Below, in pieces: positions 670-58,592 of a DNA stretch of 64,000 nucleotides. Below the pieces are notes generated by a model, which saw nothing but the letters and a program-made list of their open reading frames with translations, ran no database searches and was not told where the DNA came from. The DNA lies in NCBI GenBank assembly GCA_002722055.1, contig PBKD01000014.1, positions 142,533 through 206,532 on the forward strand, given 5' to 3'. Numbering within the stretch: position 1 is the first letter of the stretch; each line of letters opens with the position of its first letter. The position numbers and the translations under genes were made by a program. The stretch comes from Rhodospirillaceae bacterium. Lineage in GTDB: Bacteria; Pseudomonadota; Alphaproteobacteria; SHVP01.

Positions 670-713
670 CTACTCCACAGTTACCATCTTTTCCAAATCT
701 GTAGGTTGATTAA
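670..713 (-). repeat. Displaced or mimic copy of the glmS 3' end (distal repeat)
   Basis: Read on the minus strand this encodes NQPTDLEKMVTVE-stop, the last residues of the methyltransferase. The true glmS end encodes DQPRNLAKSVTVE-stop. Thirty of 44 bases match with no gap, including a 9-of-10 block over the VTVE codons, and similarity stops at both ends of the block. It is in frame with glmS and reads as a degenerate attachment-type repeat. Confidence 0.6.
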
Positions 714-2007
714 ATAAAGGAAAATCATCAGATTCAATTTCAGTATTGGATTCAATTGATTCATATTTCACATTAGCGAATGTCTTTAAAATTGCCTCTA
801 AAATGTATCTAACACCATCCACAGGAACTGCCATTCCTATTTGTCTTCTCACACTTTCTTTTGAACCATGAAAAATGAAATCATCAGGGAAGGTTTGTAA
901 TCTAGCACGTTCTCTGTTAGTGAGTGCTCTATTCTCAATCCAGTGATATACGTGAGTTCCACCTCCTCCACTTCCAGTAATAGTATATGCTGGTTTCTCC
1001 GGGTCTAATCTTTTATAAATCATAGATAATTTCGCACCTTTAACATTTAGTTTTAAGTTTTCAGGCAAATCTGCGGTCCAAGCATTTTCACCTGGTTTTA
1101 TATGTTTTAAACGTTCAACAACATTAGTACTTTGTTTTGTAAATTCGTGATTTGCACAATCGCTTTTAATAGGTGGTTCAGTAATAGCATCCTTACAATT
1201 TTTGAATCTATTCAATATTGGTGGTTTTGGAATCTTGAATTTCAATTTTAAATCTTTTCTTATTCCAACAATTATATATCTATGCCTTGTCTGAGGAATT
1301 CCGTATTCTTCAAATTTGTAAAGATGCGTTGTGAGTTCGTAACCATGTCTACCTGCATGCTTCAATTCATCAAGTATTTTTTTAAAAGCACCACCAGAAT
1401 TTGCACTAGATATTCCAGACACATTTTCTGCAAAAATAAATTTAGGGTTATTTTTGTTAATGTACTTTACACCATAAGAATATAAAGGACCATAATTACC
1501 ATCTAAACCTTTTGTTTCTCCAACGCTACTAAAATCATTACATGGAAAACCATATAAAAAACCGTCTACGTATGGTAATTTATTAACTAAATTCTCACTT
1601 ATATCATCGCATATAACTTTAAAATCTTTATTCCTTTTATTGGAAATATTAGTTTGAAAAGTCATACAAGTATCTTGGTGGTTATCAGTCGCCCAAACGT
1701 GCTCAAAACAGTATTTTTTTCCTTTTACTATTAACTTAGATTTTTTAGCAGCTAACGCAATTCCACCAGGACCACAATACATTTCGCCAATAGTAAATTG
1801 ATTAACTTTTGGTTTCTTTTCTATGGTTGGAAAGACATAAGGTTCTCTATTTAAAATTTCATTCTCATATTTTTCTAAAAACAAAGTCATTAAATCTCTT
1901 AATTTCTCAGATGGTTTGACGCCTAATTGTTGACATGCTAATTTGAAATCTGCAGAAAGGTCATTGGGAAGACGGAATTGAAATTTAGAGTTGCTTTCTT
2001 TGTCCAT
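670..2007 (-). CDS. DNA (cytosine-5-)-methyltransferase with N-terminal ribbon-helix-helix domain
   Basis: Modification enzyme of a type II restriction system, methylating cytosine C5 with SAM. The catalytic domain starts near residue 71. It shows motif I (EMYCGPGGIALA), motif IV with nucleophile Cys156 (GFPCNDFSS), motif VI (AENVSG), motif VIII (QTRHRYIIVG), RERARLQTFPDDF, and motif X (GMAVPV, where Asn of the usual GNAVPV is Met). Residues 8-50 (FRLPNDLSADFKL...LGVKPSEKLRDLMTLFLEKY) have the strand-helix-helix pattern of RHH repressors, suggesting self-regulation (inference). The last 13 residues mimic the GlmS C-terminus. It is divergent from the nuclease gene with about 56 bases between. 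Recognition site unknown. Confidence 0.93.
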   Translation of the reverse strand: MDKESNSKFQFRLPNDLSADFKLACQQLGVKPSEKLRDLMTLFLEKYENEILNREPYVFPTIEKKPKVNQFTIGEMYCGPGGIALAAKKSKLIVKGKKYCFEHVWATDNHQDTCMTFQTNISNKRNKDFKVICDDISENLVNKLPYVDGFLYGFPCNDFSSVGETKGLDGNYGPLYSYGVKYINKNNPKFIFAENVSGISSANSGGAFKKILDELKHAGRHGYELTTHLYKFEEYGIPQTRHRYIIVGIRKDLKLKFKIPKPPILNRFKNCKDAITEPPIKSDCANHEFTKQSTNVVERLKHIKPGENAWTADLPENLKLNVKGAKLSMIYKRLDPEKPAYTITGSGGGGTHVYHWIENRALTNRERARLQTFPDDFIFHGSKESVRRQIGMAVPVDGVRYILEAILKTFANVKYESIESNTEIESDDFPLFNQPTDLEKMVTVE

Positions 2008-2063
2008 ACAATTATAGCAACATAATTTTAATAAAGTGTCAATTTAATTATAGAACATTGGTT
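2008..2063. promoter_or_regulatory. Divergent promoter/operator region of the RM genes with a direct repeat
   Basis: AATTATAGCAACAT (2010-2023) recurs as AATTATAGAACAT (2046-2058), in the same orientation and 36 bases apart, one next to each gene start. The first repeat read on the minus strand holds a perfect TATAAT (2011-2016) preceded by TG one base upstream, an extended -10 for the methyltransferase. The second holds TATAGA just before the nuclease start. These are candidate operators for the methyltransferase's RHH domain. Neither gene has room for a Shine-Dalgarno after such a -10, so near-leaderless transcripts are possible. Confidence 0.5.
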
Positions 2064-3095
2064 ATGTTTACTAATGGTGAAATTGGAGAAAACTTTGGAA
2101 AAGAGATAGAAAGCAAACTTAAAAATGCTATAGACTTAGAGGTTGCTTCTGGATTTTTTAGTTATAAGTTATTAGAGAGACTTACACCTACTTTTAAACA
2201 AATTGCAAAAAAAGGTTCATGTAAGTTGTTATTTGGAATGATTTTTCATGATAAAGCAACAAAGAGTCAAAAAAAATGTCTCATTAAGTTGAATAACGAA
2301 TTAAAAAAAATCAATAAAGATAGCGGCGTTTTTATTACTATTCAACAATATCATGGAAAGATTTTCCGCATTGTTGAAAAAAAGTGCGAAAATATTTATA
2401 TCGGTTCATCAAATCTTTCTTACTCTGGATTTAAAACATACAAAGAATTTAATTTACTTGTTAAAGATAATAAAGACCAATTATTAGTAAAACATTTTCT
2501 GAAACATTTGTTTAATGAAACAGACCCTAAGAAAAAAATTGGTTTTCCATTAGATGCAGTTGATTTACAACTCAAAAGTCAAACCTACCCCACTACACTT
2601 CCTAAGAAAACATTAGCGAATTTTGAAATTCCTAAAAGTAAATTTCCAAAAACACTCCCAAAAAATTCACTCATAATTAAGCATCGTCCATCAGAACAAC
2701 CTCGTTCCTCATTAAATCTATATTTTGACAAAGGTAGAAAAAACAAGAGTGGAAAATATTCACCTAGACCATGGTATGAAATAGAAATAACGAGTGAAAA
2801 AAATGAAAGGTTAGACCCATGGTATCCCAAGGGTGATTGGACTGCTTTTGTTAATGATGACGAAAAATATTATAAATTAGAAATGGTAACCTCTTCAGGC
2901 GACCCAAAATCCCCCAAAGCAATTCAATCTAAAAATGGAAGAAATATTTTAGGAGAACTGATTAAAGGTAGACTTGAAAGAAAAAATGTCCTTAAGAAAT
3001 TTGAACAAATTACTCAAGAAATATTGGATGATTATGGAAAAGATTATATTGAACTTAAAAAAATTAAAGACGGTGTTTATGTGATGGTAATTTAG
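2064..3095 (+). CDS. NgoFVII-like type II restriction endonuclease (PLD fold)
   Basis: Partner of the neighbouring methyltransferase; it would cleave unmethylated DNA. The N-terminal half is phospholipase-D-like: HGK (His97, Lys99) followed by IYIGSSNLSYSGF with Asn117, the HxK...N pattern used by metal-independent PLD nucleases such as NgoFVII and BfiI. The C-terminal half (RPWYEIEI, WYPKGDWTAF, ILGELIKGRLE) fits the specificity domain of NgoFVII-type enzymes. I chose ATG at 2064 over an in-frame TTG at 2058. It converges with the small ORF at 3122-3454. The specific recognition sequence cannot be read from the protein. Confidence 0.85.
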   Translation: MFTNGEIGENFGKEIESKLKNAIDLEVASGFFSYKLLERLTPTFKQIAKKGSCKLLFGMIFHDKATKSQKKCLIKLNNELKKINKDSGVFITIQQYHGKIFRIVEKKCENIYIGSSNLSYSGFKTYKEFNLLVKDNKDQLLVKHFLKHLFNETDPKKKIGFPLDAVDLQLKSQTYPTTLPKKTLANFEIPKSKFPKTLPKNSLIIKHRPSEQPRSSLNLYFDKGRKNKSGKYSPRPWYEIEITSEKNERLDPWYPKGDWTAFVNDDEKYYKLEMVTSSGDPKSPKAIQSKNGRNILGELIKGRLERKNVLKKFEQITQEILDDYGKDYIELKKIKDGVYVMVI

Positions 3096-7424: not shown

Positions 7425-8243
7425 ATGCTTAAATTAAATTATATAATTTTTCTATTTTGTTCTAGTATACTTTTATACTCATGTTCAAATAATAATCTAA
7501 ATTCAACAAAGATTATACCTACTTTTCAAAATGAAAAAGAAATAAAAAATAAAAATAAGACATCAAAGATCTATTTCTTGGGTTTAGCGTTATGGGGAAA
7601 TGGAGAAGAATGGTCTGAAAATGATATAATTGATTTAGAGAAAATCTTTAGAGATGTATATTTTAATAGAAAATTTAATTCATTTATTTTTAGTAATAAG
7701 GGAATAGATTCAAAAAACAAATTACCCTATTTCTCTGAAAAGAAATTAGAGATCTTAATAAAAAATATAAGTGATTTAATAACTGAGAAAGATATAATAA
7801 TAATAACTATATCATCACATGGTTTCCCAGGGGGAGTTACTTATCGAATTGGCATTACACCAAGCGCTCCTATCTTAGGTGACAGAATTCAAGAGATACT
7901 TAGACCTATTAAAGAAAATAATATACTTATTATTATTTCATCATGTTACTCTGGGTCACTAATTGACTCCCTCAAAGGAACAAATCGTATTATTTTTACT
8001 GCTGCTTCCGCAGATAAGCCTTCTTTTGGATGTGACAAAGAATCAAAGAATTCGTGGTTTATTGAATCATTAAATGAATCATATTATAAACATTTAAACA
8101 CTAAAAAAAGATTTTCTCTAAAAAAATGGTTTAATGAAACAAAAAATATTGTAAAAAAGAAAGAAGAAAGACTCGGATACCCTCATTCTTTCCCACAAAT
8201 TTTTATTGGAAAAAATGCAAATCCGTTTGTTTTTTTATTATAA
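7425..8243 (+). CDS. Peptidase C13 (legumain/caspase-clan) lipoprotein
   Basis: Residues 1-19 are a lipoprotein signal peptide with lipobox LYSC, so Cys20 would be lipidated and the protein exported. The remainder carries a clan CD cysteine-peptidase signature: IITISSHG (His132) and ILIIISSCYSG (Cys174), each after a hydrophobic strand, then TAASADKPSFGC. That is the His/Cys dyad layout of bacterial Peptidase_C13 proteins. It begins 9 bases after gph and could be co-transcribed with it, though no functional link is evident. The catalytic residues look intact; target unknown. Confidence 0.8.
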   Translation: MLKLNYIIFLFCSSILLYSCSNNNLNSTKIIPTFQNEKEIKNKNKTSKIYFLGLALWGNGEEWSENDIIDLEKIFRDVYFNRKFNSFIFSNKGIDSKNKLPYFSEKKLEILIKNISDLITEKDIIIITISSHGFPGGVTYRIGITPSAPILGDRIQEILRPIKENNILIIISSCYSGSLIDSLKGTNRIIFTAASADKPSFGCDKESKNSWFIESLNESYYKHLNTKKRFSLKKWFNETKNIVKKKEERLGYPHSFPQIFIGKNANPFVFLL

Positions 8244-31420: not shown

Positions 31421-33118
31421 TTAATTTTTTTCTAAGAAGGATATAATTTCAGATGTGAATTCTTTTGCTTTATATTCAAGAAATCCATAGTCCTCATTTG
31501 GTAAATCTCTAACTGTAACATTTTTTATACTTGAAAAATATTTATCTGTTCTATCTTGAAGACCATCTCTGGGTTTAAATATTAGGGTAGGCTGGTTAAT
31601 ATAACTTAATGTTTCATACAATTTATATGAAAAAACTGCTTTATGACCCCAATGAGCAAAAGGTCCTCCTCTTAGAGCTTCAACAAAGTTTCTTTCTATA
31701 ATTTTGCCTGTAGCTTGACTTCCACTAAGCATTTTGACAGAACTCCACCTTTTTATAAGATGAGAGCCATCAGTTTGTGGCTGATTATAATTTGATTTTT
31801 TATATCTTTCTTCTCTCTCATGTTTATCAAAACATGGCAAACCATTTAGTATCAAATTACTAACTAGGCCTTTATTGAAAGCAGCTATATGTAGTGCAAT
31901 TACTGCACCTGTGTGATCCCCCATTATATCAATGGGATTTTCACCTGATATCTGCATCAATGATCTAATAACTATTTTTGATAAACTATCAATAGATGGC
32001 TCTTGTTCTGTCGGGTCAGATTCTCCAAAACCTGGGATGTCCATAGCAATTGCCAATCTATCCTTACCTAACTCTAGTAATAAATTTTCAAAATTTCTTG
32101 ATGAAAAAGGACTCATATGCAAACATAAAATAGGTTTTCTTTGATATTTTGGCGAACCTGATACTCTTGCATGTACCTGCACTCCATCAATATTTAAAAA
32201 TATTTTTTTTATCTTCTTATTAACTCGATTAAAATTTGGTTTATAAATATTTGCTGATAAGTTTTCTATATTTAATTTAATTTGATTGTCATAGAATTTT
32301 TTTAATATATTGCTATACATTTCAGTATCTATTGATAAAGATCCCATACCATAGTTAGGTAATTCCATTATGCTTCCATTAACAAGAAAATTTGATGATG
32401 CCTTTGTAGCATCCCATAACATGTCATTGGGACATAATACTAATAATGGATGATTTATTTTTGGAAGATTATCTGCATGATTAACAGCAAAAGCAGCGTT
32501 ATGACCATACCAACCCTTGTCTAGCGGCCTTTGCATTTCAATAAAATCTCTGTTAATCAATTCTAATGGAGAGTTTGTATACCACTTCTGAAGTGACTTC
32601 CACCTTTCAACAAAATGAGCTCCATCTTCAGGGATAATGTCCTTTGGCTTTTCATCTTCAAGGTGTAACATCATTTTCTTCATTTGCTTTTTTGAGTAGA
32701 CTGGGCATGAATTGAAAACTGCGCTTCCAATTTTTGAAGGGTTTTGCTTGATTATTTCAACCGCAATTTTTGCACCAGTATGATCACCAAAAAGATTTAC
32801 TGTGTCAAAATTTAAGTGATTTATAAACTCTATAATTGAAAATGCATAATCAGAAATATTGGGAGGTGAAACTGGTGCATCAGAGTCACCAAATCCTGGA
32901 GTATCAATTGCATAGACTAGTCTATCTGAACATAATTCTTTCATTAAACCTTCAAAAGGCCTGCTATTAGAAGGACTTTGATGAAGTAAAATAATTGGAT
33001 CTTTAGAACCTAAATCTTTTCCAGCACGCCTAAGATGTAACTGGCCAAATATTCCATCAAAGTACTCCCTAGTTACTTCACTTGGTTTTCTCCAAAAAAT
33101 TTCAATTTCTCTGTTCAT
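31421..33118 (-). CDS. Tandem alpha/beta-hydrolase fusion with GDHTG elbows
   Basis: Two homologous alpha/beta-hydrolase units in one 565-residue chain, about residues 1-285 and 295-565. Shared landmarks are LHQSPSNSRPF and LHMSPFSSRNF, PGFGDSD and PGFGESD, and DGAHFVERW and DGSHLIKRW. At the nucleophile elbow both halves have GDHTGA, so His replaces the usual Ser/Asp/Cys. An acidic residue follows near the third strand (PND, PRD), but no common final His is evident. It could be an atypical enzyme or a binding protein. Divergent from the Hyi-like gene and upstream of the EamA permease. Confidence 0.75.
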   Translation of the reverse strand: MNREIEIFWRKPSEVTREYFDGIFGQLHLRRAGKDLGSKDPIILLHQSPSNSRPFEGLMKELCSDRLVYAIDTPGFGDSDAPVSPPNISDYAFSIIEFINHLNFDTVNLFGDHTGAKIAVEIIKQNPSKIGSAVFNSCPVYSKKQMKKMMLHLEDEKPKDIIPEDGAHFVERWKSLQKWYTNSPLELINRDFIEMQRPLDKGWYGHNAAFAVNHADNLPKINHPLLVLCPNDMLWDATKASSNFLVNGSIMELPNYGMGSLSIDTEMYSNILKKFYDNQIKLNIENLSANIYKPNFNRVNKKIKKIFLNIDGVQVHARVSGSPKYQRKPILCLHMSPFSSRNFENLLLELGKDRLAIAMDIPGFGESDPTEQEPSIDSLSKIVIRSLMQISGENPIDIMGDHTGAVIALHIAAFNKGLVSNLILNGLPCFDKHEREERYKKSNYNQPQTDGSHLIKRWSSVKMLSGSQATGKIIERNFVEALRGGPFAHWGHKAVFSYKLYETLSYINQPTLIFKPRDGLQDRTDKYFSSIKNVTVRDLPNEDYGFLEYKAKEFTSEIISFLEKN

Positions 33119-33181: not shown

Positions 33182-33964
33182 ATGCTCAAGATTTCTGCAA
33201 ATATTTCTTTATTATTTACTGAATTACCAATGCTAGATAGGATTAAAGCTGCTTGTGATGAGGGATTTACAGCTTTTGAACTTCATTTTCCCTATGAAAT
33301 ACCTATTGAAGAACTTATTAAAGTTGTAGAAAAAACAAAAATGAATGTTTCTATTTTTAATTTTCCTGCTGGAGACTTTCCCAATGGCGGCCCAGGAATA
33401 GCTTCTATTTCGGAGAGAGAGGCTCATTTTAGAGCTTCAGTAGCTGAAGCACGAATGTATGTTGAAGCTTTAAAGCCTTACGGAGTAAATATGTTATCAG
33501 GATGCCCACTAAAATATACAAAAAAAAAACTTGGGGAAAAAATATTTATAAAAAATCTGATATATGCTGCACAGAGATTTCAAGACACAAATACTTTAAT
33601 GCTTATCGAACCAATTAATTTATACGATAGACCAAATTACCTAATTAATACAACTTTTGAAGCTATAGAAATTATTAAAAAATCTCAATTACAGAATGTC
33701 AAAGTTCTATTTGATATTTATCACATGCATAGAATGGGAGAGGATATTAAAAAAACAATTATTAATAATTTCTCATATATTGGGCATATACAATTTGCTG
33801 ATTACCCTGGAAGAAACCAACCTGGAACAGGAAAAATTAAATTTGAAGAAATCTTTAATACTTTAAAAAAGTTAAAATACGATAGATGGATAGGAGCTGA
33901 ATATAATCCAAAATCTACAACATATAATTCTTTATCATGGTTAACTCAATTTGGTTTTATCTAA
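33182..33964 (+). CDS. hyi: Hydroxypyruvate isomerase-like TIM barrel protein
   Basis: AP-endonuclease-2/xylose-isomerase-like TIM barrel. Features typical of Hyi/OtnI are FEAFELHFPYE-like FTAFELHFPYEIP near residue 32, FNFPAGDFPNGGPGIAS, MLIEPINLYDRPNYLI, VLFDIYHMHRMGEDI and HIQFADYPGRNQPGTGKI with the metal-site residues. It would interconvert hydroxypyruvate and tartronate semialdehyde. The stop overlaps the next start as TAATG. Confidence 0.85.
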   Translation: MLKISANISLLFTELPMLDRIKAACDEGFTAFELHFPYEIPIEELIKVVEKTKMNVSIFNFPAGDFPNGGPGIASISEREAHFRASVAEARMYVEALKPYGVNMLSGCPLKYTKKKLGEKIFIKNLIYAAQRFQDTNTLMLIEPINLYDRPNYLINTTFEAIEIIKKSQLQNVKVLFDIYHMHRMGEDIKKTIINNFSYIGHIQFADYPGRNQPGTGKIKFEEIFNTLKKLKYDRWIGAEYNPKSTTYNSLSWLTQFGFI

Positions 33965-34881
33965 TGGCAAATAAGAGAAAGATCAAACCGCAAACAAATT
34001 TTTCTAGAAACATGGATTTTGAATATGGTATTCCAAAAAATCTAGGGAAAAAAATTAGAAGAATTATTGCAAATAATCCATCTAATTTTACGTTATATGG
34101 CACAGGGACATATATTATTGGAAAAGGAAACGTTGCAATTATTGATCCTGGACCTGATGATGATCAACATATAAATTCATTACTTAAGGCACTAGAAAAA
34201 GAAAAGATAACTCATATTTTTGTAACTCATACCCATAAAGATCATTCACCTGCTGCTAAAAAAATTCATAAATTAACCAAAGCGCCTGTATACGGTTTTG
34301 GAAAACACCCAAAGAATTTATGTAAAGATCTATCATTTGTCGAAGAGGGAATAGACTATGATTTTTCACCTACCATAAAAATAAATGATAATGAAATTTT
34401 CAAAGGAGAAAATTGGACAATTAAAGCTATCCACACTCCTGGGCACACATCAAATCATGTATGTTATGAGCTAATTGAAGAAAGCACTCTGTTTAGTGGA
34501 GATCACTTAATGGGTTGGTCTACTACAGTCATAGCACCACCCGATGGAAGTATGTCAGATTATTTAATTAGCCTCAGAAAACTTTTGAATTTTTCTTTCA
34601 AAATCTGTTGGCCAACACACGGACCACCAATAGAAAATGTATCAAATTTCATTGAGCTAATAATTAAGCATAGAGAACATAGGGAAAAACAAATACTAAA
34701 AACGCTAGAAATAAAAGATAATATTAATGAAATAGTAAAAGAATTGTATAAAGATAAAGATCCAGCATTATTTCCTGCAGCATCTCTATCAGTCCTTGCT
34801 CATTTAATCTTTTTAGTAGAGAAAGGGAAAGTTATATCTGAAAAAAAAATTACTCTAGGATCTAAATTTAGAATTGTTTAA
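33964..34881 (+). CDS. MBL-fold metallohydrolase (LACTB2-like)
   Basis: THTHKDHSPAAKKI is the HxHxDH metal motif, with IHTPGHTSNHVCYELIEE, LFSGDHLMGWSTTVIAPPDGSMSDY and CWPTHGPPI completing the site. The C-terminal winged-helix-like segment (ALFPAASLSVLAHLIFLVEKGKV) matches LACTB2-type proteins. I start at ATG 33964, which forms TAATG with the hyi stop and implies coupling; an ORF opening at 33937 overlaps hyi more and lacks support. The stop interlocks with the convergent synthetase gene. Confidence 0.85.
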   Translation: MANKRKIKPQTNFSRNMDFEYGIPKNLGKKIRRIIANNPSNFTLYGTGTYIIGKGNVAIIDPGPDDDQHINSLLKALEKEKITHIFVTHTHKDHSPAAKKIHKLTKAPVYGFGKHPKNLCKDLSFVEEGIDYDFSPTIKINDNEIFKGENWTIKAIHTPGHTSNHVCYELIEESTLFSGDHLMGWSTTVIAPPDGSMSDYLISLRKLLNFSFKICWPTHGPPIENVSNFIELIIKHREHREKQILKTLEIKDNINEIVKELYKDKDPALFPAASLSVLAHLIFLVEKGKVISEKKITLGSKFRIV

Positions 34882-36500
34882 TTATTTATTTTATAACCTT
34901 TAAACTCATCTCTCAGCTTTGATTTTAATAACTTTCCTGTTGCAGTATGTGGAAGTTCATTAACAAATACTACATCATCTGGAATCCACCACTTTGCTAC
35001 TTTACCAACAAAAAAATCTAAAACTTCTTTTTTTGTGAGTTCACTTTTTTTATCTTTAATAACAAGCAATAGCGGTCTCTCATCCCATTTGAAATCTTTA
35101 ATACCAATGACACAGGCTTCTAAAATTTTTTCATGACCAATTGCAATATTTTCTAAGTCTATCGAACTAATCCACTCCCCACCTGATTTGATAACATCTT
35201 TTGATCTGTCAGTTATTTGCATAAAACCATCACTATCGATTGTAGCAACATCACCAGTATTAAACCATCCCTCCTTATCAACAATAGGCTCATCTTCTTT
35301 AAAATATCTCTCAGTAATCCATGGACCCCTAACTTTTAAATTCCCAAATGAGCTTCCATCTCTTGGCATCAGTTTTCCATCATCATCTGTAATTATCATC
35401 TCAACACCAAATATTGCTCTACCTTGTTTAGCGCTTAAATTTAATTTTTCTTCATATGAAAGCTTGGAGTGTTTTGGAAGTAACCTGCTAACTGTACCTA
35501 ATGGACTCATTTCCGTCATTCCCCAAGCATGGAGAACTGTTACATTATATTTTTCAAAAAAATCTTTTATCATTGATTTAGGTGCAGCCGAACCGCCAAT
35601 CACTAAATTCTTCACGGTATCTATACTACCCTTAATCTCATCCATATAATTTAATAACATTAACCACACGGTTGGAACACCTGCAGAGATTGTTATACCT
35701 TCATCATTAATTATTTCATAAATACTTTTTCCATCCATCTCTGACCCAGGCAACACTAGTTTAGACCCACTCATAGGAGCAGCATAAACCAAACCCCATG
35801 CATTTGCATGGAACATAGGCACAACAGGCATTACAACTGATGATGATGATATACCTAGTGTATCAGGCGTGGCTGTAGCCCAGGCGTGAAGGAGAGTAGA
35901 CTTATGTGAATATAATACACCTTTTGGATTTCCTGTTGTTCCAGATGTGTAGCAAAGAGAACAAGCATCATCTTCTTTAAATTGAGGCCATTCTATATCT
36001 ATATTTTTTTGATCAATTATATTCTCATAAGATAAAAGATTTTCTAATTTAATTCCCGGATTAGATTTATGAGATTGCATTATTACATAATGATCAATAG
36101 TTAACAATTTTTTAGATATATTACAAATCAAACTGGAAAATGACTCATCAAAAAAAAGAATTTTATCCTCAGCATGATTAGCAATATATATTATCTGCTC
36201 TTCAAACAATCTAGGGTTTATAGTATGCAATACTCCCCCCATACTCGATATAGCATAGTATAATTCAAAATGTCTATGATCGTTCCATGCTAAGGTTGCT
36301 ACCCTGTCTCCTTTTTTTAGACCTAATTTATTTAATGCTTGAATTAATTTTTTTATTCTATTTGTAGCCTCAGAGTAGTTATAAATAAATTTTTCAGTTT
36401 TATTTACTTTTGAAATTATCTCAACATCCCCATAATTTTTATCTGCAAAATCAATTATGGAAGATACTAATAACTGTTTATTTTGCATAAGACCGAGCAT
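34878..36500 (-). CDS. Acyl-CoA synthetase, AMP-binding (DmdB-like)
   Basis: Adenylate-forming ligase with [17 protein letters not shown] (P-loop), [28 protein letters not shown] and the catalytic Lys in [13 protein letters not shown]. The N-terminus [19 protein letters not shown] and [20 protein letters not shown] match the family that includes methylmercaptopropionyl-CoA ligase DmdB and medium/long-chain ligases. I choose ATG at 36500 because GAGG lies 6 bases upstream and it begins just after the CDF stop; a longer reading to 36533 overlaps that gene. Substrate not determined by sequence. Confidence 0.88.
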
Positions 36501-36501
36501 A

Positions 36502-37437
36502 TTAGACCTCAAAAAAATCTCTCTGATCATCAATACCCTCAGGATCTTGATGAATAATTATTTCTGAACCTGGAAAATTATATAACAAAAGCTCTTCCAC
36601 TTCATCAGAAATTTCATGAGCCATTAATAAAGATATACTTGCAGGTAATTCCAGATGGAACTGAATAAAATTTTTGGAACCAGATTTACGTGTTCTTAGG
36701 TCATGAATATTGTTTACTAGACTATGTTTTAAAACAATTTCAATGATTCTTTGCCTATCTTCCTCGCTAAATTCTTTATCCATAAGCTCGTCTATCGAAG
36801 AAATAAAAATCTTATATGATATAAATAAAATATATATAGATATTAAAAGTGCAACTATTGGGTCAATTAGTGGAATTTCTATATATGATGTAAATAAAAG
36901 AGATATAATTACTCCACTATTAAGAAGGACATCACTGAAATAATGCAAAGAGTCTGCCTCTATAGCTTTTGAATTAGTTTTTTTAATTATTCTTCTTTGG
37001 TATATAACTAATGCTATTGTTACTAAAAGTGAGATAAAAATGATAATTATGCCTTCAAAACTATTCTCAATGATCTTAGGCGAAAAAAATCTTCTAACAA
37101 CCTCTATCAATAAAAAAATAATTGAACCAAAAATAAATGTCGACTGAGCTAAACCTGATAAAGCTTCTGCCTTTCCATGACCAAATCTATGCTCTTTATC
37201 AGCAGGAATCAGAGCCTGTCTTACAGCAAATAAGTTAAATAAAGATGCTAATGAATCAAAAACAGAGTCGACTAAACTGGATAAAATAGATACTGAATCT
37301 GTCATTGACCAAGCAATAAATTTAATAAATACTAGGAAAATAGCTACTAAAACTGAAGCATAAGTGACATTGCGCAAGGCACGAGAGCGTTCAACAATTG
37401 ATATATCTGAATCAATATTATCTTTTAAATAAGACAT
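36502..37437 (-). CDS. Cation diffusion facilitator transporter (FieF-like)
   Basis: Metal/proton antiporter with six membrane helices and a cytoplasmic tail. Helix 2 has SLVDSVFDSLASLF with the metal-site Asp pair, followed by DKEHRFGHGKAEALSGL. Helix 5 has DSLHYFSDVLLNSGV. The C-terminal ZT_dimer-like domain has HDLRTRKSGSKNFIQFHLEL. It exports Fe, Zn or Mn, not resolvable here. It sits 1 base from the synthetase gene and 12 from pdxH. Confidence 0.9.
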   Translation of the reverse strand: MSYLKDNIDSDISIVERSRALRNVTYASVLVAIFLVFIKFIAWSMTDSVSILSSLVDSVFDSLASLFNLFAVRQALIPADKEHRFGHGKAEALSGLAQSTFIFGSIIFLLIEVVRRFFSPKIIENSFEGIIIIFISLLVTIALVIYQRRIIKKTNSKAIEADSLHYFSDVLLNSGVIISLLFTSYIEIPLIDPIVALLISIYILFISYKIFISSIDELMDKEFSEEDRQRIIEIVLKHSLVNNIHDLRTRKSGSKNFIQFHLELPASISLLMAHEISDEVEELLLYNFPGSEIIIHQDPEGIDDQRDFFEV

Positions 37438-50608: not shown

Positions 50609-51556
50609 ATGAATATTTATAAACCCACAAAAAAAACGCTAGCACTTGCTGTAAACAAGCTCAAAAAGGCAAAATTGGTTGTTTTTCCAACCGAAACAGT
50701 CTATGGGCTTGGAGGAGATGCTACATCTGAAAGTGCTATTCTAAAAATTTATACTTTAAAGAAAAGACCTAGATTTAACCCTTTAATTATTCATTGTTCC
50801 AGTCAAGAAGATGCTATGAAGATAGGTAAATTTGATAACTTAAGCATAAAATTAGCAAATAATTTTTGGCCTGGACCATTAACAATAGTTTTGCCAAGTA
50901 AAAAATCTAGTCAAGTTTCTAAACTTGCAACCTCAGGCCTCCAGACAGTTGCTTTAAGAATCCCAAGAAATAAATTTGCTATTGAATTAATTAAATTATT
51001 TGGAAAGCCGATAGCAGCACCTAGCGCAAATCCATCTGGAAAACTTAGCCCAACATGCGCAGAGCATGTTCAACAAAAATTAGGAAAAAAGATTGATTTA
51101 ATCATTGACGATGGAAATGCATTAAAAGGAATAGAGTCAACTGTTATTTCTATTATAAATAATAAAGTTTATTTGCTAAGGCCAGGGGCAATAACTAATG
51201 AAGAAATTGAGGAAGTACTTGGAAAAAAATTATTAATAAATAGTTTTGAAAAAAATTTATCTCCAGGAATGCTAAAAAATCACTATGCAACAACAAAGCC
51301 ATTAAGAATAAATGCAAAAAGAGTTTTTAGTGATGAAGCGCTTCTTTCTTTTGGAAATAAAACACCCAAAGGTGCATTTAAAACTCTAAACTTAAGTAAA
51401 AATGGCAACCTTAACGAGGCAGCACAAAATTTATTTTCAATGCTTCATAAATTAGAAAAATTAAAAGTAAGAAAAATTGCTGTTTCCTCTATACCTGATA
51501 CTGGACTAGGAAAAGCTATAAACGATAGACTAAAAAGGGCATCGTATTCAAAATGA
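50609..51556 (+). CDS. L-threonylcarbamoyladenylate synthase (Sua5 type)
   Basis: Makes TC-AMP for the t6A modification of tRNA. The YrdC domain has VVFPTETVYGLGGDATSE, IYTLKKRPRFNPLIIH, FWPGPLTIVLP, VALRIPRN and PIAAPSANPSGKLSPT. The C-terminal Sua5 extension (SPGMLKNHYATTKPL onward) makes 315 residues, so this is the two-domain Sua5 form. It overlaps the next gene by 4 bases (ATGA). The 146-base gap before it has nothing recognisable beyond AT-rich sequence. Confidence 0.93.
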   Translation: MNIYKPTKKTLALAVNKLKKAKLVVFPTETVYGLGGDATSESAILKIYTLKKRPRFNPLIIHCSSQEDAMKIGKFDNLSIKLANNFWPGPLTIVLPSKKSSQVSKLATSGLQTVALRIPRNKFAIELIKLFGKPIAAPSANPSGKLSPTCAEHVQQKLGKKIDLIIDDGNALKGIESTVISIINNKVYLLRPGAITNEEIEEVLGKKLLINSFEKNLSPGMLKNHYATTKPLRINAKRVFSDEALLSFGNKTPKGAFKTLNLSKNGNLNEAAQNLFSMLHKLEKLKVRKIAVSSIPDTGLGKAINDRLKRASYSK

Positions 51557-52983
51557 AAAAGATTGCCTCGATTATAACAAAAGAAAATATTGAAAATCTT
51601 AAATTAATATGTGGAGAAAATGGGTGGACGGATGCAGAAGATATAAATGAAAAATACCTTTCTGAGGAAAGGAACTTTTATAAAAGCTACTCGCCCATAA
51701 TATTAAGGCCAGACAGTACTCTTAAAATATCAAATATACTGAAATATTGTTATAAAAAAAATATTCCTATTGTTCCTCAAGGAGGGAATACTGGTTTAGT
51801 TGGTGGTACCGTTTCCGGACATATATCTAATGAAATAATTCTTAACTTAGAAAAAATGAATAAAGTTCGTGAGCTTTCACATACTGACTCTGTACTAATT
51901 GTTGAGGCAGGTGTCAAACTTCATGAAGTTCAATCTATTGCTAAATCAATAAATAAGTTTTTTCCTTTAAGCTTAGCGTCTGAAGGTACATGCCAAATCG
52001 GAGGTAACTTAGCAACAAATGCGGGAGGAGTTCATGTTATCAAATACGGTAATGCTAGGGATTTAGCACTCGGCCTTGAGGTAGTACTAGCTGATGGAAC
52101 AATAATTAATGGCTTAAAAAAACTTCGAAAGGATAATTCAGGATATAATTTAAACCAGCTCTTTATTGGGTCTGAGGGAACATTAGGAATAATAACTGCG
52201 GCATCTCTAAAATTATTTCCTATTCCATATGAAGTAAATACAATTTTATTAGCTTTAGATTCATTAGAAAATGCAATAGAAATAATGAATGAATTGAAGA
52301 AAATATATTTAGAAAGACTGAGTGCCTTAGAGTTTTTTTCTAATTTTTCCCTTGAAATAGTTTTGAAAAACACAACAAACACCATGAGGCCTTTTGAAAA
52401 AAATTACCCCTGGTACATTTTAATTGATATTGAAGGAACACCTGATACGAATCACAATAGTAACTCTATAGAAAATTTTCTATTTGAAAATTTGAAGAAA
52501 AATACAATAAAAGATGGTATAGTTGCAAAAAATCTTAAAGAAAAAGAAAATTTTTGGAAATTAAGAGACAGTATCCCTTACGCTCAAAAACCAGAGGGGG
52601 CAAGCATTAAACATGACATTTCTATTCCAATAAGCAAAATATCGCAATTCTTAGATGAATCTACAAAAAAAATTCATAAAGCTATTCCAAATATACGGCC
52701 TTGTATATTTGGTCACCTAGGTGACGGAAATATTCATTTCAATCTTTCAAAACCGATTCAAATGGAAAACCTTGTTTTTGAAGAATATCAAGATAAAATA
52801 AATAAAATCATTTTTGATATTGTAATAAATTACAATGGATCAATAAGTGCAGAACATGGAATAGGTCTAGTCAAAAAAGAAGCAATAAAAAATTATAAAG
52901 ATAAATCTGAAATTACCATTATGAAGAATATAAAAAAAATATTTGATGAAAAAAATATTTTGAACCCTGGGAAATTAATTTAA
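51553..52983 (+). CDS. FAD-linked 2-hydroxyacid dehydrogenase (D-2HGDH/GlcD-like)
   Basis: VAO-type flavoprotein with the FAD-binding segment VPQGGNTGLVGGTV, LASEGTCQIGGNLATNAGG and SEGTLGIITAASLKLFP. The C-terminal GlcD-like oxidase domain has CIFGHLGDGNIHFNLS and SAEHGIGLVKKEAI. The HLGDGN...EHGIG pattern is shared by D-2-hydroxyglutarate dehydrogenase, D-lactate dehydrogenase and GlcD. 476 residues. Its end overlaps that of ald by 9 bases. The exact substrate is not resolved. Confidence 0.88.
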   Translation: MKKIASIITKENIENLKLICGENGWTDAEDINEKYLSEERNFYKSYSPIILRPDSTLKISNILKYCYKKNIPIVPQGGNTGLVGGTVSGHISNEIILNLEKMNKVRELSHTDSVLIVEAGVKLHEVQSIAKSINKFFPLSLASEGTCQIGGNLATNAGGVHVIKYGNARDLALGLEVVLADGTIINGLKKLRKDNSGYNLNQLFIGSEGTLGIITAASLKLFPIPYEVNTILLALDSLENAIEIMNELKKIYLERLSALEFFSNFSLEIVLKNTTNTMRPFEKNYPWYILIDIEGTPDTNHNSNSIENFLFENLKKNTIKDGIVAKNLKEKENFWKLRDSIPYAQKPEGASIKHDISIPISKISQFLDESTKKIHKAIPNIRPCIFGHLGDGNIHFNLSKPIQMENLVFEEYQDKINKIIFDIVINYNGSISAEHGIGLVKKEAIKNYKDKSEITIMKNIKKIFDEKNILNPGKLI

Positions 52984-54090
52984 TATTTCTTTTATACTTT
53001 TATATGGTAAACCAAGAGAGTCAGATACAGGTTTATTAATAACATTTCCAGAAAAAATATTTAAACCATTAGCCAAGTTTTGGTCATTAATTAAAGAATT
53101 TCTTAATCCCTTGTCAGCAATATTCAGAATAAAAGGGAGAGTAGAATTATTCAGGGCATATGTAGAAGTCCTAGCTACTGCTCCTGGCATATTTGTAACA
53201 CAATAGTGAATAACATCATGAACTATATATGAAGGGTCATCATGAGTTGTCCCCCTACTTGTCTCAAAACAGCCACCCTGATCGATTGATACATCAACCA
53301 TAACACTACCTTTTTTCATTTTTTTTACTAGATCCTCTGTAACTACACGAGGAGCTGAAGCTCCAGGCACCAGCACAGCTCCTATAACTAAATCTGCTTC
53401 AATTACTTTCTCCTCAATTAAATCTAAAGTTGGATACAAGGTAGTTATTGAAGTTCCAAACATCTGATCTAGCTCTGCTAAACGATAAGGGTTAAGGTCA
53501 AATATATAAACATCGGCTCCAAGGCCAACCGCCATTTTAGCAGCATTTGTTCCAACAATACCTCCTCCAAAAATTATTACTTTAGCCGAAGGCACTCCTG
53601 GAACTCCGCCCAAAAGCTGACCTCTACCACCTTTAGAAATTTCCAAGAAATGAGCACCACATTGTATAGACATTCTGCCTGCAACCATACTCATTGGCGC
53701 TAGCAATGGAAGGCCACCTTTATCATCGGTGACCGTTTCATATGCTATAGCTGAACATCCAGATTTAATAAGAGCATTTGCTTGTTTTCGATCAGGGGCA
53801 AGATGAAGATAAGTAAAAAGTATCTGGTCGTTTCTTAAAAATGAATATTCTATCTCTTGAGGCTCCTTTACTTTAACTACAAGCTCTGAATTTCTCCAAA
53901 TATCTTCAGCCTTATCGACAATTTGTGCACCTGCATCAATATAATCTTGATTGGAAATGCCTATCTTAATTGCTGCATTTGACTGAACGTTTACCGAATG
54001 ACCTCTAGAAATAGCTTCTCTTACACTAGAGGGAGTCATACCAACTCTATATTCATGAATTTTAACTTCTTTAGGAACACCTATCCGCAT
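52975..54090 (-). CDS. ald: Alanine dehydrogenase
   Basis: NAD-dependent deamination of L-alanine to pyruvate and ammonia. It shows MRIGVPKEVKIHEYRVGMTPS, KVKEPQEIEYSFLRNDQILFTYLHLA, the nucleotide-binding VIIFGGGIVGTNAAKMAVGLG, VDVSIDQGGCFETSRGTTHDD and CVTNMPGAVARTSTYALNN. 371 residues, full length. It lies 3 bases after the aminotransferase stop, so the two are one unit. Confidence 0.97.
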   Translation of the reverse strand: MRIGVPKEVKIHEYRVGMTPSSVREAISRGHSVNVQSNAAIKIGISNQDYIDAGAQIVDKAEDIWRNSELVVKVKEPQEIEYSFLRNDQILFTYLHLAPDRKQANALIKSGCSAIAYETVTDDKGGLPLLAPMSMVAGRMSIQCGAHFLEISKGGRGQLLGGVPGVPSAKVIIFGGGIVGTNAAKMAVGLGADVYIFDLNPYRLAELDQMFGTSITTLYPTLDLIEEKVIEADLVIGAVLVPGASAPRVVTEDLVKKMKKGSVMVDVSIDQGGCFETSRGTTHDDPSYIVHDVIHYCVTNMPGAVARTSTYALNNSTLPFILNIADKGLRNSLINDQNLANGLNIFSGNVINKPVSDSLGLPYKSIKEILN

Positions 54091-54093
54091 GTC

Positions 54094-55429
54094 TTATTCT
54101 ACCTTATTTAATACTTCACCAATAGTTTCAAATAATTGGTTTATTTCATTTTTTTCAATAATTAAAGGAGGTGATAATGCTATAGTATCACCAGTAACTC
54201 TTACCAAAACACCTCGTTCATAGCAATGGGCAAAAACATCATTAGCCCTTGCGCCTGGTTTATCTTTTCTAGATTCCAATTCAATTCCAGCTATCAGGCC
54301 TAAATTTCGTATGTCCTTTACATAAGGATAGTCTTTGAGAGAGTGAGCAACCCCTTCCCAGTAATCAGATAATGATAGCGCTCTTTCAAACAAACCATCT
54401 TCTTTATAAACATCAAGAGTAGCTAAACCTGCGGCACATGCTAATGGGTGGCCAGAATATGTATAACCATGAAATAACTCAATTGCTCCATCTCCGGAAC
54501 CATGCATGAATGCATCATAAATTTTTGACTTAACAAATACGGCGCTCATTGGGACTGTGCCATTAGTGAGCCCTTTAGCAGAAGTTATCATATCAGGAAC
54601 CACATCAAAATACTCTGTTGCAAAAGGTTTACCAAGTCTTCCAAATCCAGTAATAACCTCATCAAATATTAAGAGTATACCATGTTTATCACATATTTCT
54701 CTTAGCCTTTTTAAATAACCTATAGGAGGAACAATTACTCCTGCAGAACCCGAAACAGGCTCAACGATTACTGCAGCAATAGTTGAGGCATCATGCAGAT
54801 TAACTATCTTTTCAAGCTCATCAGCCCAATGAACACCCCATTTAGGCTGGCCTTTTGAAAAGGAATTTTTTTCTAAATTATAAGTAGCAGGTAAATGATC
54901 AACTCCCGATAGTAGGGGACCAAAAAACTTTCTATTATTGACCATTCCCCCAACAGATATTCCACCAAAACCTACACCATGGTAACCCTTTTCTCTTCCG
55001 ACAAAACGTGTTCTTGAAGCTTGACCAATTATTCTTTGGTATGCAATGGCAATTTTTAATGCTGTATCAACTGCCTCAGAACCTGAATTAGCAAAAAAAA
55101 ACATGATCTAAATCATTTGGCATTAATGCAGTTAATTTTGCAGCAAATTCAAATTCTGATGGATGTCCCATTTGAAAAGCCATTGAATAATCCATCGTAG
55201 AAACTTGATCCTGAACAGCCTCAACAATCTTTGTTCTACAATGACCAGCATTTACACACCATAAACCAGCTACACCATCAAGAATTTGTCGATTATCATA
55301 CGATGTATAGTACATACCTTTTGCGGCAACCAACATTCTTGGGTTAGCTTTGAAAGATCTATTTGAAGTAAATGGCATCCAGTATGAATCCAAATTATTT
55401 GTCTTAATATCAATTGCATTCTTAATCAT
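54094..55429 (-). pseudogene. Omega-amino acid--pyruvate aminotransferase, frameshifted in a T-run
   Basis: Class III PLP aminotransferase of the beta-alanine/omega-amino-acid:pyruvate type. The N-terminal frame (55088-55429) has SYWMPFTSNRSFK, DGVAGLWCVNAGH and ends ALMPNDLDHVFFC. The second frame (54094-55104) resumes FFANSGSEAVDTALKIAIAYQ, has EPVSGSAGVIVPP, DEVITGFGRLG and the PLP Lys in TSAKGLTNG. The break is a run of nine T on the coding strand (55093-55101); eight would restore DHVFFANSGSEA. It could be a real mutation, a base-calling error, or slippage at translation. Apart from this the gene is complete and ungapped. Confidence 0.85.
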
Positions 55430-55462
55430 ATTATTTCCTAAGCCGAATATTCATAATCTTTT

Positions 55463-56674
55463 TCACTTTCTTGACGGCTCATATAATATTACTGGGCCAT
55501 CTATCCCTTTCATACCATACTTTCCCGCCTCATCAAATACTATTGGTTTACCTTGGGATAATTCCCTTACTATATTTGATACAAGAATTTTATCAGTTTC
55601 AGCCGCATCGCATATTCTAGCCGCCATCTGAACAGTTGATCCAAATAGATCATTTTCTTCAACTATCGGCTCACCAGCATTTATTCCAATCCTCATATGG
55701 AGGGAAAGTTCTTTATTCTCTGAGTTATGGGCTCTTAGACCTTTTATCATAATCAATGCAGACTCTACAGCTTGATGTGATTTAGAAAACCTAGCCATTA
55801 TTCCATCACCTGTATGTTTAACTTCTTTTCCACTAAAATCTCTGAGCGCAAGCCTAACAATGGCATTATGAACTCTTAAAACTTTTTGAGCACCTTCATC
55901 GCCTAATTCTTGTGTTAACTTTGTTGAACCTACTATATCAGTAAAAAGAACTGCAATCGGGCCATCAGTTGTTGAAGAATCTTTCTTAGGGTTTCTCCAT
56001 TCATTTATAGCATTTTCAATCTTGCTTGCTGCATTCATGTCCCCTTTTAAATAATCTTTTAAAGCATCTGTTCCAGCTTGAAACATTGAGATGTATTGAG
56101 GCTCCAAAAGATACTCATCGTAATTGTCTGCAAGCTTCTTAGCTGCTGATGGTTTATTGCCTATAAGAGACAAAACTCTCTCTAAAAGTTTTATAAACTG
56201 GTCGTAATTTAAGGAACTATCTTCACGCACTACTTCACATGCTCCAGCTAAGTATAAATTAGTTCCAAATCGATCAGAACTTGCAATATTTATATTTTTT
56301 AAAACTAAATGTTGAAGAGAATTTTGTAAAAAATTCATTAATGCTAGTGTTGCCTCCTTATCATCCCCTTCAGGCTCAACCTCTTGTTCAACATCAACAT
56401 CTTCAGATAAATTGTCCTCAAAATTATCTAGCGAAGGCTCAATAACTGGGTCACTTGAATAGTTTCTTTTTTTATTTTTTCTTTTCTTAGATAATTTTTT
56501 TTTCTTTAATGTTTTACTTTTATTTTTTTTTGTTTTATTTATATTTTTTTTTGTGCTTCCAAAAATACTTGACATCAACTCCTTTTCTTCTCTTGAGAGA
56601 AAGACTTTAGCCAAAAGGCTATAACTCAAAAGAAATGAGAGAACAAATATACCCCAACTAGCATATTCAAGCAT
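55463..56674 (-). CDS. Membrane-anchored adenylate/guanylate cyclase (class III)
   Basis: One N-terminal transmembrane helix (about residues 5-27), then a very Lys/Asn-rich segment, an acidic stretch, and a helical region. The C-terminal class III cyclase domain (about 240-385) has AVLFTDIVGSTKLTQELGDEG with the metal Asp in FTDIVGS, HTGDGIMARFSKSHQAVESA and GINAGEPIVEENDLFGSTVQMAARICD. It would make cAMP. No sensory domain is recognised in the linker. It lies upstream of the aminotransferase/ald pair and downstream of an acidic single-pass membrane protein. Confidence 0.88.
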   Translation of the reverse strand: MLEYASWGIFVLSFLLSYSLLAKVFLSREEKELMSSIFGSTKKNINKTKKNKSKTLKKKKLSKKRKNKKRNYSSDPVIEPSLDNFEDNLSEDVDVEQEVEPEGDDKEATLALMNFLQNSLQHLVLKNINIASSDRFGTNLYLAGACEVVREDSSLNYDQFIKLLERVLSLIGNKPSAAKKLADNYDEYLLEPQYISMFQAGTDALKDYLKGDMNAASKIENAINEWRNPKKDSSTTDGPIAVLFTDIVGSTKLTQELGDEGAQKVLRVHNAIVRLALRDFSGKEVKHTGDGIMARFSKSHQAVESALIMIKGLRAHNSENKELSLHMRIGINAGEPIVEENDLFGSTVQMAARICDAAETDKILVSNIVRELSQGKPIVFDEAGKYGMKGIDGPVILYEPSRK

Positions 56675-56743
56675 TCATTTTGCCCCATAAGTGAAATCAT
56701 AAAAAATTTTTATAAATAAATTATATATTTATTCGTATTCTTT

Positions 56744-57250
56744 TCAAATACCAAATTGGCCATATAAACTTAATCCGAATTTTTGAAAAATCAATGTAAT
56801 GATAGCAGCAAAACCACAACTAAATATCAAGATACTTAGCATCTTGATTACAAGTGATATTTTAGAACTCTCAGTTACCTCAATATTATTTTCTTTTAAA
56901 ACTCTTTTTTTTCTTTTTCCTAAACTTTCTGCCTGTGGCTTCTCATCAGGAACTTCATCCATCCAACTCTTTGGACTTTCTTCATTTTTATATTCATCTT
57001 CATTTTCACTTGAAGATTCTTCATAGTTTTCGGCTGATTTATCTGGTTCTGTTGTAAAAACCGTCTTCTCTTGTTTCGCTCCCGTAGCAGGATCCAATGT
57101 CTCTCTGATAACTTTTACAGCTTGAACATGCCTCTGTGAGGCAAGTTGCTTTGCATCTTCAACTGCTATTGTCTCCTGATGACCGGGAAATGTAGCGTCA
57201 ATAAGCCACCGATCTTTTGACTTCACATATAATTCTACACTTGTTTCCAT
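56744..57250 (-). CDS. Single-pass membrane protein of unknown function upstream of the cyclase
   Basis: 168 residues. The N-terminal part (METSVELYVKSKDRWLIDATFPG, AVEDAKQLASQRHVQAVKVIRE) is a compact alpha/beta-like segment. An acidic low-complexity linker follows (about 72-110), then a basic patch, and a C-terminal transmembrane helix (about 132-158, ISLVIKMLSILIFSCGFAAII). It is in the same orientation as the adenylate cyclase, 69 bases away, so they may act together. AAAGATAA precedes the ATG. No family recognised with confidence. Confidence 0.65.
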   Translation of the reverse strand: METSVELYVKSKDRWLIDATFPGHQETIAVEDAKQLASQRHVQAVKVIRETLDPATGAKQEKTVFTTEPDKSAENYEESSSENEDEYKNEESPKSWMDEVPDEKPQAESLGKRKKRVLKENNIEVTESSKISLVIKMLSILIFSCGFAAIITLIFQKFGLSLYGQFGI

Positions 57251-57328
57251 TAGTTATCTTTAATTGTAAAATTATTTAATACTATCTGAATTTAATTAAT
57301 AATTGAACAGAAAGGATAATACTTATCA

Positions 57329-58561
57329 TTATTGGTTTTTTTTCAATACTTCATCAATTACTTTATCACCAGTTGGCAAACCAAATTCAAACTTTCCAAA
57401 TATTGACATATTTCTATCCCAGTTTGCACCAAATTGAGAAGCCATAGCATTAACATCCCTATAAAATCTATGAACTGGATTCGTATCATACAGACCTACA
57501 GCTCCCATATGTCCAAATAGTCTATTTACCGAACTTACACATAGTTTTGCTATAAAAGCTCTATCTCTTGTTATTTTTGCAACCTCTCTTGCAGAAAGAG
57601 ATTGCTTATTAAGTCCTTTTTCATGAAGAACTCTGTTTATATTATTATATATCAAAACTGCTGCATCTATCTCTGCTGAAGACTCTGCCAATCTATGCTG
57701 GACAGGGACTTGATCCTTAATTGAATTTCCAAAAATTGCACCCTTCCTATCAGAAGTAAGGTTTTTATAAGCCTCATAAGCGCCTTCAGATGCTCCGATT
57801 AAAGGACCAAGAAAACTAGATCCAAAGTAAGGAAGAAATGGCATTTCATACAAATAGCTTTCTGGGTTTATTGAAGCTCCTGGAGGGTTTCTATCAAAAG
57901 TTGCATGAGCATTAATTGTTCTATATTCTGGAACAAAAAGGTTATCACATTTTATATCTTTGCTTCCAGTCCCTCTCATTCCAATTACATGCCAAGTATC
58001 AATGATTTCAAGTTCACTTGTGGGAACCAAAAGCCTTATATATTTTGAATGATCTCCAGGATCATTTCCATCAATATGTGAGTGGACTATTGACCACTCA
58101 GAGTGATCTACACCTGAGGCAAATCTCCATGTTCCACTTAAATTATAACCTCCCTTAGTTTTTACAGCACAACTACTTATTTGAGCAGAAGCCGTTACAA
58201 TAACTTGGTTTTGATTGCTACCCCAAATTTCATCTTGGCATTCTAGAGACATCCTTCCAGCGATAGCGGCATGAGCACCTACAACAGAAACTATCCAAGC
58301 CGATGAGGGACAACCCCTAGCAATTACCCTTGCGGCATCAGCATGAGTAGCCCAACCCATAGAATAACCTCCATACCTTTTTGGTTGATAAATCCTCATT
58401 AGACCTGAGTTGAATAAATCATCAATATTTTTCTTTGGTAATTTACGATCTTGCTCAGCCTCAAGAGCTCTATCTTTAAAGATTGGAATGAGTGATTCAG
58501 CCCTCTTTATTATATCTTCTCGGCTGGGAATATTGCCATTTATATGCATATCTAAAGACAT
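57329..58561 (-). CDS. Acyl-CoA-dehydrogenase-fold flavin monooxygenase (HsaA/DszC-like)
   Basis: FMN/FAD group D monooxygenase-like protein of the acyl-CoA dehydrogenase fold. GLMRIYQPKRYGGYSMGWATHADAARVIA, GCPSSAWIVSVVGAHAAIAG, YNLSGTWRFASGVDHSEW and WHVIGMRGTGSKDIKCDNLFVPEYRT match the family that includes HsaA and DszC oxygenases. It lacks the catalytic Glu motif of true acyl-CoA dehydrogenases. Start at ATG 58561, with GGAG 8 bases upstream, rather than TTG 58564. A flavin reductase partner is not in the window. Substrate unknown. Confidence 0.85.
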   Translation of the reverse strand: MSLDMHINGNIPSREDIIKRAESLIPIFKDRALEAEQDRKLPKKNIDDLFNSGLMRIYQPKRYGGYSMGWATHADAARVIARGCPSSAWIVSVVGAHAAIAGRMSLECQDEIWGSNQNQVIVTASAQISSCAVKTKGGYNLSGTWRFASGVDHSEWSIVHSHIDGNDPGDHSKYIRLLVPTSELEIIDTWHVIGMRGTGSKDIKCDNLFVPEYRTINAHATFDRNPPGASINPESYLYEMPFLPYFGSSFLGPLIGASEGAYEAYKNLTSDRKGAIFGNSIKDQVPVQHRLAESSAEIDAAVLIYNNINRVLHEKGLNKQSLSAREVAKITRDRAFIAKLCVSSVNRLFGHMGAVGLYDTNPVHRFYRDVNAMASQFGANWDRNMSIFGKFEFGLPTGDKVIDEVLKKNQ

Positions 58562-58592
58562 CAAAAGTCTCCATTAACGATTTGAGATAAGC

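Follow-up and report, generated by a model that had tools for sequence, protein, structure and literature searches.

In the very large α/β-hydrolase superfamily, the textbook nucleophile is Ser, Cys, or Asp. In the stretch of DNA analyzed here (64,000 nucleotides, hereafter the window), an ORF on the reverse strand (31421–33118) encodes a fused double α/β-hydrolase-fold protein of 565 residues, P0001, in which each half carries GDHTG at the elbow, as indicated by the ORF translation, Pfam, and a structural model. We compared this protein with Ser/Cys–His–Asp hydrolases (esterases, 3-oxoadipate enol-lactonase, C–C hydrolases of the BphD/DxnB2 type, and PHB depolymerase). P0001 shares with these enzymes the fold (VIA-align Z about 26–29 over about 250 residues, rmsd mostly 2.1–2.9, mostly for the C half), the elbow, the HxxP loop, and the acid position, whereas it has a His at the elbow, lacks the final His, and is mostly only 13–19% identical to them. 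The meta-cleavage C–C hydrolases BphD and HsaD have a Ser–His–Asp triad, whereas P0001 has neither the Ser nor the final His, and the curated HsaD model gave 52.6 bits against a cut-off of 400. Haloalkane dehalogenases and epoxide hydrolases (including Cif-like ones) rank high in Foldseek and phmmer searches, and their GHDWGG aligns with GHHTGG; however, they use an Asp nucleophile, and a His is aligned there in the family described below.

The NDR family has a non-enzymatic α/β-hydrolase fold. The Pfam Ndr model scores the whole of P0001 marginally (24.6 bits against a gathering cut-off of 23.3), with no single stretch passing alone, whereas Abhydrolase_1 scores far higher (58.6) and has two matching stretches. 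No NCBIfam model came near its cut-off for P0001; when 34 family members were scanned, the N half was near no cut-off, and the others were judged by E-value (best, 1e-21). Among PDB chains, the best score with the family profile was 93.4 bits, compared with at least 226 bits for HTG members, so that no solved relative was found. A His elbow in an α/β-hydrolase fold was not found in a search of the open-access literature. P0001 belongs to a distinct and apparently undescribed family of single or fused proteins, for which we coin the name GxHTG and which is a new variant within a known fold family.

Histidines at the nucleophile elbows of P0001

The N half (residues 1–285; 32264–33118) and the C half (residues 300–565; 31424–32221) were delimited from the alignment of the halves, from an alignment of 42 fused proteins (A1), and from an AlphaFold2 model built with A1 (mean pLDDT 94.6, pTM 0.93). 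The halves are 30.5% identical across 259 residues. GDHTG occurs at residues 111–115 (32774–32788) and again at 400–404 (31907–31921), and a DG(A/S)H..(E/K)RW element reported in the preliminary description was found in both halves, as DGAHFVERW (165–173) and DGSHLIKRW (450–458). The DGAH (165–168; 32615–32626) and DGSH (450–453; 31760–31771) parts of these elements are cap motifs recognized in the half alignment and A1.

In the model, the N-half elbow consists of strand 107–112, His113, and helix 114–125, and the C-half elbow of strand 396–401, His402, and helix 403–414. Structural searches of the model with Foldseek and VIA-align returned ordinary α/β-hydrolases; the VIA-align rows mostly span residues 301–565, and the N-half fold is read from the secondary structure of the model and from the alignment. 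For comparison with Ser-type enzymes, 138 units were cut from fetched proteins, and the 128 of at least 225 residues were aligned, 10 shorter ones being dropped. The aligned set comprises 99 HTG units, 16 non-HTG C halves, and, as an outgroup, 13 rows of Ser-type proteins from other Pseudomonadota. The column of His113 holds Ser in 13/13 outgroup rows which, together with the modeled elbow, argues that there is no Ser elbow elsewhere in P0001. The model and the alignment thus show that His113 and His402 occupy the exact nucleophile position of the elbow. This bears out the earlier proposal of two hydrolase halves with GDHTG in place of GxSxG; the ORF, Pfam, the model, and the alignment all agree on it, and the true elbow Ser that might have lain elsewhere in each half did not appear.

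The catalytic-acid position is occupied by Asp232 in the N half (32423–32425), which does not vary among the 42 doubles of A1, and by Asp518 in the C half (31565–31567; alignment column 346). The final catalytic-His column, which holds His in 13/13 outgroup rows, has Met258 (32345–32347) in the N half and Tyr544 (31487–31489) in the C half; in the model, these residues lie in the loops after strands 248–253 and 534–539, where a catalytic His would be located. P0001 therefore has the canonical fold, a strand–turn–helix G-x-Nu-x-G elbow, and an acid after strand 6/7, and it has neither a Ser, Cys, or Asp nucleophile at the elbow nor a His after strand 8. In other words, P0001 retains the elbow together with the HxSP loop and the acid Asp, the Ser is replaced by His, and nothing takes the place of the final His.

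A conserved set of cap residues comprises DGxH, W173, and R190-x3-E194-x2-R197. The presence of R190, E194, R197, H168, and H206 in the cap suggests a carboxylated substrate. A metal site formed by the conserved His residues 28, 46, 113, 168, and 206 was considered and set aside, since His28 lies within strand 25–32 and is also found in 5/13 outgroup rows.

Both halves are under purifying selection: among three orthologues, dN/dS was 0.08–0.09 for the N half and 0.12–0.13 for the C half (rough values, with dS up to about 2), and HTG is kept in the N and C halves of all nine GDHTG orthologues.

We tentatively favor, at somewhat less than even confidence, the reading that P0001 has two catabolic active sites in which the elbow His serves as an acid–base residue. 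Both halves would be active sites, and the His would not form a serine-type acyl-enzyme; it would be aided by Asp232 or Asp518 and by the Asp of GDHTG. In acetylcholinesterase, the residue preceding the Ser is close to the catalytic His, and by analogy the Asp of GDHTG could stand in for the missing final His. The substrate would be a small, probably carboxylated intermediate gripped by the Arg/Glu/His set of the cap. Against two active sites stand the variation of the C-half acid in GDHTG proteins (Asp in 9, Glu in 5, and Gln in 2 of 16) and the degenerate C halves of GSHTG-like doubles.

Constancy of the elbow and final histidines in the GxHTG family

Membership in the GxHTG family was defined by a profile A2 score of about 200 bits or more together with a His elbow. 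The P0001 halves, which are themselves rows of A2, score 294 and 282 bits. When all ORFs of the loci fetched by then were scored with no selection by motif, the elbow was His in 130/130 units at 230 bits or above, a tally that is partly circular because A2 was made from HTG rows only. His was found in 3/4 units at 200–230 bits and in 4/20 at 150–200 bits, with singles of the GVRTG, GFATG, GVATG, GSMTG, and GTQTG types falling in the latter range along with degenerate C halves. Below 110 bits, the Ser elbow is dominant, and the Ser-type rows all score 110 bits or less. Beyond the window's family, that is, in the other families of its class and one genome of another class, 26/30 units above 150 bits have a His elbow. 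Neither in this tally nor in the fetched loci did a Ser elbow occur above 110 bits. These unselected tallies replace an "invariant His" read from A1, A2, and the 128-unit alignment, which was dropped as circular since the rows had been chosen by motif. The altered elbow noted in the preliminary description is thus real, and it is a family-wide feature, not one confined to P0001.

Ala (GFATG), Arg (GVRTG), Met (GSMTG), or Gln (GTQTG) replaces the elbow His in paralogues below 205 bits, and some of these are conserved across several genomes. The fold can therefore do without the elbow His, which, judged from these sequences, is usual in the family and not obligatory. Members with GFATG, GVRTG, and GSMTG in the window's own genome (L005:1486–2280, L060:8403–9245, and L058:7971–8822) each represent a type that recurs in other genomes. 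A second, more distant group of Ala-elbow hydrolases (GAATGG, GCATGG; L051:11869–12699, L052:2763–3635) keeps a His near the end.

The position of the His at the superfamily's Ser/Cys/Asp point of attack, its presence in every one of the high-scoring units, and the conserved HxSP oxyanion loop would suit a true covalent nucleophile, with an acyl or other imidazole intermediate resolved with the Asp and, in GYHTG proteins, also with the final His. We consider this improbable, as the search of the open-access literature gave no α/β-hydrolase with such a nucleophile and GDHTG members are without a base to resolve the intermediate. Slightly more improbable still is a site in which another residue is catalytic, either the oxyanion-loop Ser (Ser48/Ser336) or a cap His (168/453 or 206/492), and the role of the elbow His is limited to positioning the substrate. 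Ser48, Pro49, and His168 are indeed nearly as conserved as the elbow in doubles with two HTG motifs; yet Ser48 is replaced by Thr in 5/5 GHHTG and 3/3 single-domain GDHTG units, and His206 is replaced by Tyr or Pro in several groups.

The preliminary description saw no final His. This holds for P0001 and does not extend to the GYHTG paralogues, where, in the 128-unit alignment, the final His is kept in 28/29 units, compared with 0/34 for GDHTG. Intermediate values were found for GMHTG (3/5), GFHTG (2/6), and GNHTG (1/3), and the residue is absent from GSHTG (0/11), GTHTG (0/5), GHHTG (0/5), and GLHTG (0/1) units; in GSHTG units, the loop of the final His is itself gone. As the HTG rows were picked by motif, this table is uninformative on the constancy of the elbow His. 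Under the acid–base reading favored above, the final His of the GYHTG relatives would still belong to the site. The raw link between elbow Asp and final His is strong (29/29 units with Asp lack the final His, and 24/25 with Tyr have it); a linked change of the two was nevertheless not adopted, since the association is not independent of kinship and comes from too small a number of independent changes, with 2 pairs on starred branches and a sign test giving p = 1.

A tree of 115 units was computed with the elbow and final-His columns removed. A branch with 97% support separates the whole family, including the degenerate C halves, from the Ser rows. Because single-domain His-elbow proteins (GHHTG and GS/GTHTG) branch outside the halves of the GY/GD/GM doubles, the elbow His is older than the fusion that gave rise to these doubles. 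GSHTG-type doubles with degenerate C halves form a separate group (94%), a placement that suggests a second fusion. GDHTG units are nested among GYHTG units, N and C halves alike, and the Asp of GDHTG may, on this tree and short of proof, have been acquired after duplication. The earlier proposal that the change of nucleophile preceded duplication thus stands for the His and may not hold for the Asp. A separate gain of the Asp in each half, favored by the large tree, was not adopted, a single GDHTG clade not being rejected (p-AU 0.26); one clade of all C halves was not rejected either (p-AU 0.587).

GSHTG N halves joined to a C half with a decayed elbow (GHQGG, AWNGA) are retained in many genomes (L042:9454–11214, L047:3130–4824, L050:5709–7463), and the decayed half is a candidate structural or regulatory half. 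Two adjacent GHHTG genes with overlapping open frames (L138:686–1588 and 1489–2313) look like an unfused counterpart of the doubles.

Distribution and gene neighborhood

The family is expanded in the window's order, where P0001 has matches in 10/10 genomes (up to 82 per genome, ordinary hydrolases counted). The stretches read from the window's own genome hold five fused and three single GxHTG genes, in addition to the GFATG, GVRTG, and GSMTG singles. Prevalence at genome scale is a lower bound, as only the best 6 or 8 candidates per genome were scored: among 299 Pseudomonadota genomes, matches above 226 bits occur in at least four, the window's own and three others, and among 385 genomes of the class (best 6 candidates), at least 29 match at 1e-35, five of them in the window's family, so that at least 24/380 lie outside it. 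The family is also present on proteobacterial and actinobacterial plasmids, with single-domain forms on plasmids of Variovorax, Streptomyces, Shinella, Sphingomonas, Rhodococcus, Novosphingobium, and Antarctobacter. A Steroidobacteraceae GYHTG double (L038:5707–7761) is placed within the clade of the window's family, and transfer is possible.

Neighbor counts were made in nine genomes with a full-length GDHTG orthologue, using stretches of at most 20 kb, some of which end early. An EamA permease gene (PF00892; 30540–31403, reverse strand) lies 17 bases downstream of the P0001 gene on the same strand and adjoins the GDHTG gene in 7/9 genomes. Divergent from P0001 and 63 bases off is a gene for a Hyi-like TIM-barrel isomerase (33182–33964, forward strand; TIGR03234 276.5 bits, below the cut-off of 353), present in 8/9 genomes, the sole exception being G008. 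It is followed by a metallo-β-lactamase-fold (MBL) hydrolase with a BLACT_WH domain, assigned by Pfam (33937–34881, forward strand; 6/9), and by an acyl-CoA ligase near 3-(methylthio)propionyl-CoA ligase (34878–36533, reverse strand; 802 bits, cut-off 822; 5/9). Between one and four GDHTG genes stand in tandem within the module, in the order EamA, (GDHTG)1–4, Hyi, MBL, ligase. These counts support a conserved neighborhood of GDHTG genes made up of the permease, the isomerase, the MBL hydrolase, and the ligase; the small module of the first three genes proposed earlier is therefore retained, with the ligase to be added.

GYHTG doubles lie in another conserved block in six genomes, with Acyl-CoA_dh_2-type flavoproteins, a cyclase-domain protein, an omega-aminotransferase, and an alanine dehydrogenase, not all of which are present in every genome; a CoA transferase also occurs beside GYHTG relatives. 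Plasmid-borne single-domain genes have catabolic genes as neighbors, encoding an amidohydrolase, an acyl-CoA dehydrogenase, an adenylate-forming enzyme, an aldehyde dehydrogenase, an Asp/Glu racemase, and an isopropylmalate dehydratase; for the plasmids of Streptomyces, Rhodococcus, and Antarctobacter, the neighbors are less telling.

The window has its own stretch (50609–58564) of sua5, FAD oxidase, ald, class III aminotransferase, cyclase, an uncharacterized gene, and Acyl-CoA_dh_2, collinear with L044, L101, and L116. It is without the GYHTG double that those loci carry between the flavoprotein and the uncharacterized gene, and the interval at that site, between 57250 and 57329, measures 78 bases. 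Next to the hydrolase arrays of this family, TPR and cyclase-domain proteins are found repeatedly (L041:16548–18878, L043:6591–8105, L044:6198–7358). Elsewhere in the window, a small protein (7425–8243) starts like a lipoprotein and contains a legumain-like Peptidase_C13 domain, and a C5 DNA methyltransferase-like ORF lies next to a PLD-nuclease-like ORF (670–3095); judged by their translations, these two are perhaps a restriction–modification pair.

Catalysis or binding

A non-catalytic binder, be it a pseudoenzyme or a sensor, would account for the loss of both the Ser and the final His: the pocket would bind a metabolite, with the elbow His as a mere ligand contact and the halves as receptor or scaffold. 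The conserved paralogues in which Ala, Arg, or Met takes the place of the His, the C halves of one fused subfamily that are without the elbow motif, the cyclase-domain proteins near several of these genes, and the Ndr score slightly above its cut-off all fit such a role. We nevertheless regard it as unlikely, though the least so of the alternatives. The neighbors are mainly catabolic enzymes and transporters, the polar cap set and Asp232 are conserved, and the occurrence of up to four tandem copies in one module fits enzymes better than sensors.

The catabolic setting and the expansion of the family thus speak for enzymes. On the favored reading of two acid–base active sites, the step catalyzed by P0001 would form part of a route that also includes the Hyi-like isomerase, the MBL hydrolase, and the acyl-CoA ligase. 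EamA would transport one of the compounds of this route across the membrane. For the family as a whole, it is possible, at somewhat less than even odds, that His replaced Ser with an acid–base or nucleophilic duty, that the final His then became dispensable and was lost several times, and that the family, once fused to itself, expanded in marine Alphaproteobacteria into a set of tools for handling intermediates of catabolism.

The His-elbow family is annotated just as "α/β hydrolase," and its members would be taken for ordinary esterases in every genome. The GYHTG/GDHTG pair offers a natural comparison of His-elbow sites that have the classical His with sites that lack it. Given the abundance of these genes in the window's order, they are likely important to the diet of these marine bacteria.
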